From assembly GCA_030603605.1 (NCBI GenBank), contig JAUVXN010000058.1, positions 1 through 7,485 of the forward strand: a stretch of 7,485 bases of DNA, written 5' to 3'. The position numbers were made by a program, and so were the translations under genes. Origin of the DNA: Dehalococcoidales bacterium. GTDB taxonomy: Bacteria; Chloroflexota; Dehalococcoidia; Dehalococcoidales; RBG-16-60-22. Under the pieces are notes generated by a model, which was not told the origin of the DNA, made no database searches, and saw nothing but the letters and a program-made list of their open reading frames with translations. Of this stretch, positions 1-4,888 are shown piece by piece (the stretch's first letter is position 1; every line of letters begins with the position of its first letter).

Positions 1-480
1 GATGTCATTTTCCACGGCAGGGATTTGGCGGTGAATCTCATTAATGCTAGCTCGGCTTGAGGTATGGCAAATTAACAGCCTACCGCCCCTTTTAATTACC
101 CGGTTCATTTCAGCGAGGGCTCTTAGCTTATCCTGGAAGTGGGGAAAGCAGGAATTGCAGACTACAATATCAAAGATTTCATTACCCAGGGGGATATTAG
201 TTACATCAGCACAAAGGTAATCAATGTCTCCGTTGAAGCCCTTGGTGCAGGCACACCCCAGCATTTTCTCGGCAAAATCCAGGGCAACTATTCGCCCACC
301 CTTTCCCACCTCACGCAGGAGAAAGTGAATGAATACACCGGTCCCTGTCCCCACATCAAGTACAATAGAACCAGGCTTAATCTTCAAGCGTTTAGCCATT
401 CGCTCAAGCTTGGTTGTGTCCCTTTCCGAACTGGTTTCATCCCAGCTGGCAGCCTTCTCGTTGAAATATGCCCTAACCAT
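1..480 (-). CDS. Class I SAM-dependent methyltransferase, 3' end beyond window
   Basis: The first 160 codons are visible; the C-terminus lies past the left edge. The protein has a Rossmann-type SAM-binding domain: motif I VLDVGTGTG at residues 40-48, an acidic residue closing strand 2 (VALDFAEKML, Asp68), CADVTNIPL around Asp92, the FDIVVCNS strand-4 segment (103-110) and RVIKRGGRLLI (127-137). This is the UbiE/Methyltransf_11/25 type of fold; the substrate cannot be read from the sequence. The ATG start is 2 nt after the znuB stop (TAG-TA-ATG), with GGAAG 7 nt upstream inside the end of znuB, so translation is probably coupled to znuB. It is the last visible gene of the metal-transporter operon. 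Cysteines at 76, 78, 90, 108 and 111 are rather many for this fold. A role linked to metal or metalloid handling is possible but is inference only. Confidence 0.88.
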   Translation of the reverse strand, partial: MVRAYFNEKAASWDETSSERDTTKLERMAKRLKIKPGSIVLDVGTGTGVFIHFLLREVGKGGRIVALDFAEKMLGCACTKGFNGDIDYLCADVTNIPLGNEIFDIVVCNSCFPHFQDKLRALAEMNRVIKRGGRLLICHTSSRASINEIHRQIPAVENDI

Positions 481-482
481 TA

Positions 483-1325
483 CTATTCTTCCGAGAGTGG
501 TTTCTTTTGCCAACCTTTCACCTTCCTCTTGGGAGAGAAAATAGCGGCTATCATAAAGATTACCGATGAGGTAACTACTATTGTGGCGCCACTGGGAATG
601 TTGAAAAGGTAGGATATCAACAGACCTATCCAGCCAGAGAGAACACCAAAACCCGCCGAGAGCAGAAACATTCGTTTCATACTATAGGTAAGCTGGTAGG
701 CAGCGGCGGCTGGATTCAGAATCAGACTGAAGATAAGGAGTCCGCCTATAGAACGCAGGGAGGCAGTAATAGTAGCCCCAGTCAAGAACAGGATACCATA
801 TAAAATCAGCGTGGCCGGTAAACCCACCGAGAGGGCCATGTTACGGTGAAAAATGGTGGCCTGGATTTCCTTATAAAAGATAAAAACCAACCCCACCACC
901 ACCACGGTCACTACTGCCAAAAGTATGATATCGCTTCTGGTATTGGTGAGAATACTACCCCATAGTAACTCTAGGGCTCCCGATTTGGTGCCGGGCATCA
1001 GTCCCATAAAGAGGAAGGCAATCCCCAGCATAAGAGAAAAGATAACCCCTAATGAAGTTTCGGGACTAAGCTGCCCACGGTCAGCCAGAGGGCCAATAAT
1101 GGCTGCCGATAGCAGGCTAAAGGTAAAAGCGCCGACCAAGGGGTTAAAGCCCAGCCACAGTCCAAGCAGTGCTCCAGCAAAGGCAGCGTGTGCCATACAC
1201 ACGCCGATAAAGGGCATATGCATTAGCACCACGAAAACACCTATGGTAGCACAGGCAATACCACCTAGAAAGGCAGAGAGGATGGCATTCTGCATGAATT
1301 GGTAGCCAAAAATGGATAAATCCAA
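483..1325 (-). CDS. znuB: Metal ABC transporter permease (ZnuB/ABC-3 family)
   Basis: Integral membrane subunit, expected to form the channel through which a divalent metal released by the binding protein enters the cell. At 280 aa it has the usual family length and about seven to eight hydrophobic segments (roughly residues 12-34, 40-60, 63-80, 94-112, 132-151, 168-187, 192-211, 220-262). Family landmarks are the MAHAAFAGALLG segment (44-55, matching the SHAxxPG-like motif of ABC-3 permeases), PETSLGVIFS (88-97) and GGLLIFSLILNPAAAA (194-209). The start is TTG: AAGGAG lies 8 nt upstream and overlaps the region of the znuC stop, while the next Met (residue 11) would cut into the first membrane segment. 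Only 12 nt separate it from znuC. The tail after residue 264 is basic and probably cytoplasmic. Specificity for zinc, manganese or iron cannot be told from this subunit. Confidence 0.93.
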   Translation of the reverse strand: MDLSIFGYQFMQNAILSAFLGGIACATIGVFVVLMHMPFIGVCMAHAAFAGALLGLWLGFNPLVGAFTFSLLSAAIIGPLADRGQLSPETSLGVIFSLMLGIAFLFMGLMPGTKSGALELLWGSILTNTRSDIILLAVVTVVVVGLVFIFYKEIQATIFHRNMALSVGLPATLILYGILFLTGATITASLRSIGGLLIFSLILNPAAAAYQLTYSMKRMFLLSAGFGVLSGWIGLLISYLFNIPSGATIVVTSSVIFMIAAIFSPKRKVKGWQKKPLSEE

Positions 1326-2153: not shown

Positions 2154-3011
2154 CTACTGAGCTATTGCCTCCAGTATCAACTCAATATTATAGTCAATAG
2201 CTTTCTCCCAGGTCTCGGTATTATCAAAGCCGCTAGGGAAATCGGAAAGTATTATTCTCTTGCAGCCGATGTCCATAGCTATTGGCAGCCCGGCATCCTG
2301 CCCGCTCTGCAGGTTATCGATAATCAGGGTTACATTTTCTTCCCTTCCCTTGTCCACCAGTTCTTTTACCACCTGTGGGGTAAATGAATCGGGCCTGCCA
2401 AAAACAGCCACGATATTGAGACCCGTCCATTGGACAAACCCGACCAGCATGTCAGCACACATTACATTGATGTCGGCAAGGTTTTCTTTAGCCAGTTTGG
2501 CTTCTATCTCAGCCTCTTTAGCCTCAATCCTATCCTTGTACTCGGCCGCCAGTTCCTGATAAGCAGCACTGTTTTCGGCATCTACCTCAGACAGGGCAGC
2601 CACAATCCTATCTACTGCCGCTAGTTGGACTGGTGGCGTCATCCAGTCGGGGTTTTCACCAACCTTAACATCAATCGTGGCTACGGTGAGGTCAGGATTA
2701 TTGGCTGAGGCGATTAGCTCCTGAGAAAATATCTCCCCCTGCCAGCCGTGCAGGAGAAAAAGGTCAGCCTCAGCTAGTTTCTGAATATCGCCGGGCTTGA
2801 CATCAAAATGCCCCGGGCACTGGGCGGGGGGAATAATGTTAACCACATCAACGAGGTCACCGCCCACTCGTTCCACAATTTGAGCCATCATGGAGGTGCT
2901 GGTAACTACCTTAAGCTGGGAAGTCTTTGCTGGTTCGCAACCGCTCAGAATTGAGGCAATGACGAGACTCAGGACCAAAATACCAATAATGAGACCTTTA
3001 GATTTTTTCAT
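2154..3011 (-). CDS. znuA: Metal-binding lipoprotein of ABC importer (ZnuA/TroA family), variant site
   Basis: Extracytoplasmic solute-binding protein that captures a metal and hands it to the permease. It has a lipoprotein signal: basic MKKSK, a hydrophobic stretch (7-22) and lipobox LSGC with Cys25 as the lipid-modified residue. The mature part follows the cluster A-I fold: VVTSTSMMAQIVERVGGD (35-52), PPAQCPGHFDVKPGDIQKL (61-79), ADLFLLHG (82-89), a helical, charged linker (about 150-178) and IILSDFPSG (253-261). His68 matches the first metal ligand of ZnuA/TroA. The usual second His (DPHxW) is replaced by NPDWMTPP (Asp122) and the third (HxAFxY) by VMCADMLVGF (Cys185, Asp187); Asp257 may serve as the last ligand. 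The His-rich loop of many zinc-specific ZnuA proteins is absent. The metal is therefore uncertain. ATG start; an AAAGGA sequence lies about 12 nt upstream. First gene of the operon. Confidence 0.88.
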   Translation of the reverse strand: MKKSKGLIIGILVLSLVIASILSGCEPAKTSQLKVVTSTSMMAQIVERVGGDLVDVVNIIPPAQCPGHFDVKPGDIQKLAEADLFLLHGWQGEIFSQELIASANNPDLTVATIDVKVGENPDWMTPPVQLAAVDRIVAALSEVDAENSAAYQELAAEYKDRIEAKEAEIEAKLAKENLADINVMCADMLVGFVQWTGLNIVAVFGRPDSFTPQVVKELVDKGREENVTLIIDNLQSGQDAGLPIAMDIGCKRIILSDFPSGFDNTETWEKAIDYNIELILEAIAQ

Positions 3012-3029
3012 AAAGTATGATTTTCCTTT

Positions 3030-3058
3030 CTATAATGTTTCTGATTGTTTATAAGCAA
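3030..3058 (-). promoter_or_regulatory. Likely promoter of the znuA operon
   Basis: On the minus strand a TTGCTT -35-like box (3058-3053) is followed after 17 nt by TTATAG (3035-3030), or after 18 nt by TATAGA. The -10 match is weak. The position is supported by comparison with fur: the -35 box lies 5 nt after the end of the 36-bp repeat in both places. Transcription would start roughly 10 nt before the Shine-Dalgarno sequence of znuA. Confidence 0.5.
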
Positions 3059-3063
3059 TTTGA

Positions 3064-3099
3064 TGCACCTGCAACTAAACGCAATAATAAATTAAAAAA
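3064..3099. repeat. 36-bp imperfect repeat, copy 1 (upstream of znuA)
   Basis: This copy matches 3590-3625 at 31 of 36 positions in the same orientation; the five differences (positions 6, 11, 17, 25 and 27 of the repeat) are all transitions. It lies between the fur stop and the znuA promoter. The core CTGCA-ACTAAA-CGCAA (3069-3084) is a degraded form of the dyad seen in copy 2, and one end is an A-tract. It is probably a regulator-binding site or upstream promoter element shared by znuA and fur. Confidence 0.75.
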
Positions 3100-3101
3100 A
3101 A

Positions 3102-3524
3102 TTATTTCCGGCACTCCTCACAGAGACCAAAAATAGCCAGATGACTCAGCCGAGCACTGAAGTTATACCGATGAAATAAAACATCCTGGAGACGAGCCAG
3201 TGTTGATTCATCAATATCAATTATAGTCCCACATTTCTCGCAGACCAGGTGATGGTGGTGCCCTTTATCCGCCGAATGATACCTGACCCGACCTCCCCCG
3301 AGGTCGGTCTCAGTTACCAGACCGAGTCGTTTTAACAGTTCCAGGGTGCGATAGACAGTTGAGATGTTAACCTGAGGGTATTTAGCCGCAATCTGGGCAT
3401 AGATTTCCTCGGCGCTAATATGGTCGTCGCTATCCTCAATAGCCGACAAAACCATTATCCGCTGAGGCGTCAGCCGATATCCTAGCTCGCTTAACTTATT
3501 AGCCATACCTCCGGGCTGTTTCAC
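3102..3524 (-). CDS. fur: Fur-family metal-responsive transcriptional regulator
   Basis: DNA-binding repressor of the Fur/Zur/PerR/Mur family, 140 aa, the usual length. The N-terminal winged helix includes RLTPQRIMVLSAIE (17-30) and recognition helix NISTVYRTLELL (53-64). The C-terminal dimerisation and metal domain has HHHHLVCEKCG (89-99) and a terminal CEEC, giving the structural zinc site Cys95/Cys98 with Cys135/Cys138. The gene lies just upstream of, and in line with, the metal-uptake operon, which suggests it senses the metal that operon imports (zinc, manganese or iron); the sequence alone does not separate Fur from Zur. The GTG start is preferred: AGGTG lies 8 nt upstream, whereas the Met at residue 7 has GGAGG only 1 nt away. 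Its own promoter and a copy of the 36-bp repeat lie upstream, so autoregulation is likely. Confidence 0.93.
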   Translation of the reverse strand: MKQPGGMANKLSELGYRLTPQRIMVLSAIEDSDDHISAEEIYAQIAAKYPQVNISTVYRTLELLKRLGLVTETDLGGGRVRYHSADKGHHHHLVCEKCGTIIDIDESTLARLQDVLFHRYNFSARLSHLAIFGLCEECRK

Positions 3525-3555
3525 TTAACCTTCACCTAATTTAACAAACTAATAT

Positions 3556-3584
3556 ATTGTACCGGATAAAAATAATTTCCGCAA
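3556..3584 (-). promoter_or_regulatory. Promoter of fur
   Basis: On the minus strand TTGCGG (-35, 3584-3579) and TACAAT (-10, 3561-3556) are separated by exactly 17 nt. Transcription would start near 3549, about 25 nt before the GTG start. The 36-bp repeat ends 5 nt upstream of the -35 box. Confidence 0.7.
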
Positions 3585-3589
3585 GCTTT

Positions 3590-3625
3590 TGCACTTGCAG
3601 CTAAATGCAATAACAGATTAAAAAA
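3590..3625. repeat. 36-bp imperfect repeat, copy 2 (upstream of fur)
   Basis: Second copy of the element at 3064-3099. Here the core is a perfect 16-bp dyad, TTGCA-GCTAAA-TGCAA (3595-3610), which is a plausible site for a dimeric regulator such as the Fur-family protein encoded next to it. An adjacent TGCA (3590-3593) repeats the half-site, and an A-tract follows on the promoter-distal side. The copy lies between the dtd stop and the fur promoter. Function is inferred from placement. Confidence 0.78.
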
Positions 3626-3656
3626 TTCACCGTTCTATTGCCAGGGGAAAATGCGC

Positions 3657-4106
3657 CTAAAATTTTCGTTTACTCTCCAATAGTATCGTTACTGGACCAT
3701 CATTATGGATTTCTACCTGCATATATTGCTGAAAACGCCCGGTGGCCACCCTTAATCCGGTGGCACGAGCCTGCTCCACAAATCGCTCAAATATCTCCTC
3801 GGCCTGGGCCGGCGGTGCCGCCTCAATAAAGCTAGGACGACGACCCTTTCTAGTATCAGCCAACAGAGTAAATTGGCTCACCACTAATAGCTCACCCTTG
3901 ATATCCAGAGCGGAAAGGTTAAACCTGCCCTCTTCATCGGAAAAAATACGCAGGCTAACAATTTTTTGTGCCAGATATTGCGCATCCTTTTCTGTATCCC
4001 CACTGGCTACTCCTACAAAAACCACCAGCCCCCGACCTATCCTACCCACCACCTCACCACCAACGCTAACTGAGGCTCTGGTGACTCGCTGTAGCAGTGC
4101 CTTCAC
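3657..4106 (-). CDS. dtd: D-aminoacyl-tRNA deacylase (DTD)
   Basis: Cytosolic proofreading enzyme that hydrolyses D-amino acids from mischarged tRNAs and also clears glycine from tRNA-Ala. At 149 aa it is full length. Both signature motifs are present: SQFTLLADTRKGRRPSF (77-93) and NDGPVTILLES (135-145), with the Gly137-Pro138 pair that forms the cross-subunit cis-proline element. The N-terminus MKALLQRVTRASVSV is typical. The GTG start overlaps the stop of the upstream zinc-ribbon gene (GTGA) and has a GGAAGGAG sequence ending 8 nt upstream, so the two genes are co-transcribed and probably translationally coupled. No clear terminator follows; readthrough toward fur is possible. Confidence 0.96.
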   Translation of the reverse strand: MKALLQRVTRASVSVGGEVVGRIGRGLVVFVGVASGDTEKDAQYLAQKIVSLRIFSDEEGRFNLSALDIKGELLVVSQFTLLADTRKGRRPSFIEAAPPAQAEEIFERFVEQARATGLRVATGRFQQYMQVEIHNDGPVTILLESKRKF

Positions 4107-4627: not shown

Positions 4628-4888
4628 ATGCAGTCCAGCCTGATTGGGAAAATCGAAAAGGCCAAACGCTACGCTCAGGAGCCAGAGCGGGTTACATTCT
4701 CTGAGCTTTCAGTAAAATTCCGAGGAGAGAATAACGACTACACTACTGAATACAAAGATGGAAAGTGGCATTGCTCGTGCCCCTTTTTCTCAACTTGGGA
4801 GGTTTGCAGCCATACCATGGCACTGGAGAGAATGCTAAGCAATATGCTACCTGAAGAAGCTCTGACTACACAATATACTACCCCTTGA
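4628..4888 (+). CDS. Small SWIM zinc-finger protein
   Basis: A protein of 86 aa made almost entirely of a SWIM domain. The metal ligands are Cys49-x-Cys51, then Cys60-x-His62 (C-x-C-x8-C-x-H), within WHCSCPFFSTWEVCSHTMAL. The first 45 residues form a basic helix and two probable strands (VTFSELSVKFRG, YTTEYKDGKW), as usual before the motif. SWIM domains bind DNA or protein partners and occur in bacterial SNF2-type ATPases and in recombination-related proteins; a free-standing one has no assigned role. The ATG start has an excellent ribosome site, AAGGAGGT, 6 nt upstream. It is alone on its strand, preceded by a leader ORF and terminator, and followed by the convergent folC. The short length looks natural, not truncated. 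Confidence 0.88.
   Translation: MQSSLIGKIEKAKRYAQEPERVTFSELSVKFRGENNDYTTEYKDGKWHCSCPFFSTWEVCSHTMALERMLSNMLPEEALTTQYTTP

Follow-up and report, generated by a model that had tools for sequence, protein, structure and literature searches.

Why should nearly the same short block of DNA stand both upstream of a Fur-family regulator gene and upstream of the gene for a ZnuA-family binding protein that follows it? The question is raised by a 7,485-nucleotide stretch from a Dehalococcoidales bacterium (the window), whose minus strand carries genes for a D-aminoacyl-tRNA deacylase, the Fur-family regulator (3102 to 3524; PF01475, 115.3 bits), a ZnuA-family substrate-binding lipoprotein (2154 to 3011; PF01297) that is a candidate nickel binder, an ABC transporter ATPase (1338 to 2120) and an ABC-3 family permease (483 to 1325), both assigned by family match, and a methyltransferase truncated at the window end. 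No NCBIfam model scored above cut-off for the regulator, the binding protein, the ATPase or the permease. The answer that we regard as quite probable, judging from the sequence, is a Nur-like nickel repressor that uses a doubled Nur-type box to control itself and a probable nickel importer, the one called "znuA".

Relatives were collected by scanning a genome collection with the window lipoprotein, which gave 38 loci (L001 to L038); 35 of them are labelled Chloroflexi, Chloroflexota or Dehalococcoidia/-ales, L029 is labelled Spirochaetales, and L036 and L037 Hydrogenedentota. The methyltransferase gene (window 1 to 513) overlaps the end of the permease gene, and a similar one sits after the permease in L005, L014, L018, L028 and L029. 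An 86-aa open reading frame at 4628 to 4888, with a similar one in L007, carries a CSCPFF...CSH pattern that we take to resemble a SWIM zinc finger; Pfam and NCBIfam gave no match to it.

The repeat is part of a longer operator array

The two blocks first noted, 3064 to 3099 on the znuA side and 3590 to 3625 on the fur side, are both oriented toward the minus-strand genes and are identical at 31 of 36 positions, all five mismatches being transitions, just as had been reported. Among direct 36-mer self-matches of the window this one scores highest; the maximum was 25 in 20 dinucleotide shuffles of the window and again 25 in 300 shuffles of region 2986 to 3660. The surrounding sequence differs, as the earlier note had also stated, the flanks agreeing at only 12 of 40 positions downstream and 6 of 30 upstream. 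The perfect dyad TTGCA-N6-TGCAA announced before fur is present (3595 to 3610), although such a 16-bp dyad alone is not above chance in the window (3 matches with at most 3 mismatches versus 4.33 expected). The site is significant because it is repeated and conserved in relatives. As a probe for the regulon the exact 16-bp dyad was discarded as too loose when used alone: of the 8 sites that it picked out in 10 genomes, 4 fell within unrelated genes or at their ends.

The 36-bp block is shorter than the functional unit, and on the znuA side it comprises the end of a T-tract and the first part of an array. Each 32-bp array consists of four TTGCAA-like half-sites at offsets 0/10/16/26, that is, two abutting TTGCAA-N4-TTGCAA dyads of 16 bp each. 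On the minus strand the znuA-side array (3053 to 3084) reads TTGCGT / TTGCAG / GTGCAT / TTGCTT and the fur-side array (3579 to 3610) TTGCAT / CTGCAA / GTGCAA / TTGCGG, and the two agree at 23 of 32 positions. This changes the meaning of the TTGC-type −35 box that had been placed 5 nt beyond each block: the 5-nt gap holds for both copies, but the TTGC is the fourth half-site of the array, and only at fur does it serve also as a predicted −35 element (TTGCGG, 3579 to 3584, minus strand), with the predicted −10, TACAAT, 17 bp past it (3556 to 3561, minus strand). The T-tract, eight T on the minus strand at 3094 to 3101, ends 10 nt ahead of the znuA-side array, a position that is fixed in relatives; the fur-side copy (3620 to 3625, minus strand) is without counterpart in the other 16 fur-side sites compared.

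Conservation of the array and origin of the fur-side copy

The spacing of the half-sites was examined in 59 upstream regions (24 of fur, 35 of znuA) taken regardless of sites, leaving aside L036 and L037 as well as regions that had runs of N or lacked a start. Among 1210 offset sets, 10/16/26 ranked first overall and also first in the fur and znuA groups separately, and the mean best array score was 17.05 versus 12.48 (sd 0.13) in 20 shuffle sets. The half-site pair spacings 10, 16, 26 and 6 stand out, spacing 10 with a z of 20.7 as against 6.3 for spacing 11, that of the Nur box.

Sites picked by eye from the score list number 27 on the znuA side (of 39 regions) and 17 on the fur side, with 3 extra. 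The 12 regions with no znuA-side site listed are L007, L010, L014, L016 (partly masked), L018, L022, L028 (a site-like stretch was omitted), L029, L033 (cut), L036, L037 and L038. Out of 28 fur genes found, 11 have no fur-side listing: L003, where a site is visible and was not registered, L012, L013 and L021 (cut), L025, L032 (a single dyad), and L019, L020, L022, L024 and L038, where the site lies after the −10. A control site common to the Fur-family gene and the transporter, as the earlier note proposed, is thus borne out in the relatives searched, where it is conserved, and fits autoregulation; it is neither the classic Fur box nor the E. coli-type Zur box.

It is harder to follow the argument that the repeat is not a recent duplication, which is doubtful for the block itself. 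With the frame shifted by one base, the window fur-side block matches the znuA-side block of L001, the nearest relative, at 31 of 36 positions, and the fur-side block of L001 at 23 of 36; in the part before the array the figures are 15 of 16 and 9. Among the 17 fur-side sites, moreover, the T-tract of the znuA side is in place only in the window. The window fur-side block probably arose in this lineage from the znuA side, by local copying or by conversion.

Promoter geometry and mode of control

On the fur side, at least 4 of 6 positions match TATAAT 17 bp past the fourth half-site in 14 of 17 sites, the window promoter TTGCGG-17-TACAAT being one of them, and the same is found in all 3 extra array copies. 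No such −10 match occurs at that distance in the 27 znuA-side sites, on which ground a promoter downstream of the array was rejected there. In L009, L023 and L026 the gene starts only 6 to 14 nt past the znuA-side array, so there is no room for a promoter. In several relatives the znuA-side array lies in transcribed DNA. L005, L008 and L034 carry a pair of arrays ahead of the importer, spaced by about 100 bp; the upstream one covers a TTGATA-17-TATAAT promoter and the second stands behind a T-tract. Since the separate upstream promoter has its own array, the second should lie in transcribed DNA. In five relatives (L019, L020, L022, L024 and L038) a TTGCAACCAGGTGCA-type site follows immediately after the TATAAT before fur.

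Taking into account that: (i) the array overlaps the fur −35; (ii) a related site can follow the TATAAT, and (iii) the array can lie in transcribed DNA, the geometry is that of a repressor. The earlier note had held activation or an UP-element role to be as plausible as repression. A role of the site in activation, or as an UP element, immediately ahead of the −35 at both genes would agree with an array that ends on the fur −35; the missing −10 at znuA, the genes that begin so close behind the array and the five sites placed directly after TATAAT at fur make it extremely improbable. The znuA-side copy could instead be an RNA leader element, a hairpin or a switch and not a DNA operator, being transcribed in several relatives and near the gene start. 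This is very unlikely too, because no covariation above shuffles was detected (paired cells 87.8 versus 87.6 percent), the consensus energy is −2.02 with 3 pairs, the window has no Rfam match at gathering score, and the same array is present at the fur −35 and upstream of it, where transcription is not expected.

For repression by a Fur-family protein we propose the following model. The two blocks would belong to a pair of 32-bp operators at which the protein encoded between them binds, each operator probably holding two repressor dimers side by side. Acting as Nur does, the metal-loaded repressor, most likely carrying nickel, would cover its own −35 and repress its own gene; bound to the copy that separates fur from znuA, it would limit transcription into the transporter genes. 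The products of the znuA-like, ATPase and permease genes would make up an importer of nickel, not of zinc, produced under nickel scarcity.

The T-tract ahead of the internal operator

A run of at least 4 T ends 9 to 10 nt ahead of the array in 24 of 27 znuA-side sites and in just one of the 17 fur-side sites, that of the window; as background, 2.5 percent of 20-nt windows in nearby upstream DNA contain at least 5 T. Where fur, cooT or a small gene lies directly upstream in the same orientation, the T-tract is present in 26 of 30 loci, and where none does, in 0 of 5 (p 0.0004, indicative only, since the loci are related and kinship is uncorrected). These counts come from array-registered loci with full flanks, 34 of 69 having been dropped (21 with an array score below 16, 11 duplicates, 1 masked and 1 cut). 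The tract is kept at 39 to 45 percent protein identity (L095, L097, L099 and L103).

Two more conventional roles for the tract were not supported. A promoter with its −10 on the T-tract gave no signal against shuffles (7.41 versus 7.31); L005 and L008 carry TATAAT at this position. An intrinsic terminator would need a hairpin before the tract, and none is conserved over 24 sites (mean −1.7 versus −3.0 for shuffled sequences), an energy of −8 or lower being reached in two of them, the window (−12.3) and L011 (−8.4).

The place of the znuA-side copy within the operon, behind a fixed T-tract, suggests roadblock control. A more specific and tentative proposal, which we hold to be possible and on balance doubtful, is that this copy is a hairpin-less terminator switched by the repressor. 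RNA polymerase that has transcribed the fur (or cooT) gene would run into the metal-loaded repressor on the array and stall, at a distance that we take to place its active site on the T-tract; there the weak U-rich hybrid would let the polymerase drop off, and when metal is absent it would read through into the importer. A fixed T-tract combined with an internal operator would be a simple form of switched termination, and one that is directly testable.

The regulator resembles Nur

The window regulator matched 26 PDB sequences, among which 3eyy ranked first both with the single protein (114.1 versus 97.6 bits) and with the family profile (147.5 versus 126.6 bits). Nur joins the window family against the Fur and PerR rows in an 18-row tree whose branches are long (93/93, not starred). 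His81, His88, His90, His126 and four cysteines are kept in all 23 family members, and His33 in the 22 that cover it; His81 and His126 are common to Nur, whereas the rows of Fur (9ire) and PerR (2fe3) carry Asp and Arg there. The M-site of Nur we take to consist of four histidines, 33, 86, 88 and 90. His33, His88 and His90 are kept in the window family and His86 is replaced by Gly; as a guess, the invariant His81 could be the fourth ligand in an all-His site H33/H81/H88/H90. From the Ni-site, presumably His70, His72 and His126 in Nur, His126 alone is kept, with E/K/R at 70 and D/E/N at 72. Entry 3eyy is Nur, the nickel regulator of Streptomyces coelicolor, and the Ni-site may be a crystallisation artefact, according to excerpts of PMC7055735. 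In the open-licence literature we found nothing on a Nur-type nickel regulon in Chloroflexi, nor on a Fur-family-linked nickel transporter of Dehalococcoid bacteria.

The array in other operons and the identity of the metal

A sequence-only profile built from 40 sites was run, with filters tightened at the cost of weak matches, over 148 genomes of the class, and matched (E up to 0.05) in 37 genomes at 47 distinct places. Thirty-six of these adjoin a fur homologue, CbiM, NicO, SBP_bac_5, a ZnuA-family gene or CooT (34 of 45 without the two that are training sites); three are of uncertain class (L049 and L113, with FmdE, and L111), and eight, judged mostly by eye from reading frames, are unrelated (L063, L064, L072, L107, L112, L115, L116 and L118). 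At nine places an uptake gene of the NicO, CbiM, SBP_bac_5 or ZnuA family occurs with no fur next to it: L053, assigned by tblastn only, L058 and L060, where CbiM is the third gene, L059, L069, L074, assigned by likeness to L059, L075, L108 and L109. A NicO-like gene follows fur in L014 and L055. Several NicO assignments are near or under the Pfam cut-off. The L055 protein is above it, and that of L014 scores 27.2 against a cut-off of 27.7, is above the DsbD_2 cut-off and has a weak arsenical permease match. The cooT gene lies within the operon of L005, L006, L023, L032 and others, and CooT is a nickel-binding protein, as stated in the part of PMC6006190 consulted. Because the array stands beside nickel-uptake genes in relatives, nickel is the more likely substrate of the transporter labelled zinc.

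Some of these operons hold other genes as well. In L059, L074 and L108 the array heads an operon with a methyltransferase and then an SBP_bac_5 protein (by Pfam in L059, and for the SBP only in L108), which may serve the uptake of a metallophore or a nickel chelate. In L049 and L113 the array stands ahead of FmdE-family genes with a zinc-ribbon end, followed in L049 by a Peripla_BP_2 protein. A small protein with an IEHNREHS-like motif is encoded between fur (or dtd) and cooT (L006:2448-2666, L023:1595-1864, L005:4394-4597); it has no Pfam or NCBIfam family at cut-off and one weak Chap-C match.

Zinc-binding ZnuA proteins use the His of a DPH motif and a second His as ligands. In the alignment of the window and L001 to L038 (39 rows), residues 65 to 70 instead read CPGHFD in every one of the 38 rows covering them, among these the distant L036 and L037; in another alignment the stretch of the second His ligand is gapped. 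With no motif filter, residue 88 is His in 36 of the 39 rows and residue 90 Trp in 38; in 30 further loci (L077 to L106, some from the same genomes) Cys65 is kept in 27, His68 in 25 and His88 in 30. Genome G006 encodes, besides, a second and canonical ZnuA (DPHEWE), whose best PDB match is a ZnuA entry and whose gene is divergent from that of a 132-aa Fur-family protein that does not rank Nur first. Between them lies TGATAATCTATTATCA, with no array in the intergenic stretch. Operators of the Zur regulon are TGATAAT-type palindromes, and such a palindrome is present at this separate pair; the sites studied here are TTGCAA arrays and not Zur-type.

For these reasons nickel is more likely than the zinc implied by the gene names. 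That the locus is a zinc (Zur-ZnuABC) system would agree with the PF01297 and ABC-3 matches, with some sources that label homologues 'zinc transport system' and with the complete genome G002, which has a single Fur match and a single ZnuA-family match, so that in it several metals might be handled by the one system. Set against the CPGHFD motif, the separate canonical pair of G006 without an array, the Nur likeness and the arrays that elsewhere adjoin CbiM, NicO, SBP_bac_5 and CooT, we judge a zinc system quite unlikely. The same regulator and operator could respond to cobalt, or to nickel and cobalt alike, since the CbiM and NicO families include cobalt carriers and the Pfam description of CbiM is cobalt uptake; CooT and the Nur likeness favour nickel, and SBP_bac_5 beside the array fits NikA-type nickel uptake, broad as this Pfam family is, which leaves cobalt an unlikely effector. 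A match to the prismane/CODH family, which also covers hybrid cluster proteins, was obtained in each of the 10 host genomes searched, and this suggests a nickel need. In these genomes, mostly drafts, CbiM was found in 1 of 10, a NicO match below cut-off in 1 and CooT in 5, and in 9 of the 10 neither CbiM nor NicO was detected. If the ABC importer takes up nickel, it would fill this gap, correct the 'zinc' label and open up for study a nickel-specific branch of the ZnuA/TroA fold; Nur-type control would be extended from Streptomyces to Chloroflexota with a new operator layout.

Comparison with known systems

The locus shares with Zur-ZnuABC a Fur-family regulator adjoining a PF01297/ABC-3 importer, and differs from it in the operator, the ligand motif and the neighbour genes, the canonical pair being found apart in G006. 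As regards the internal operator, PurR, GalR, ArsR, CcpA and CodY act as transcriptional roadblocks, as listed in the review PMC10310618, and in these systems too the repressor site is downstream of the start, within transcribed DNA. What distinguishes the present sites is the conserved T-tract at a fixed distance ahead of the site; a word search of the review for 'Fur', 'Zur' and 'U-rich' gave no hit.

The closest system is that of Nur, the best solved relative of the window regulator, with which it has in common a Fur-family protein of PF01475 fold, TTGCAA-type half-sites, a dyad that overlaps the promoter and nickel uptake genes nearby. The Nur box is given as tTGCaa-N5-ttGCAA in the section of PMC3919588 consulted, whereas the dyad gap here is N4, one base shorter, and two dyads abut. 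His70 and His72 of the Ni-site and His86 of the M-site are absent here, and the target is a ZnuA-family importer as against nikABCDE and sodF, a role in controlling nickel transport genes being indicated for the window regulator by gene neighbourhood. Because the box spacing and the Ni-site residues differ, we do not class the protein as Nur itself.
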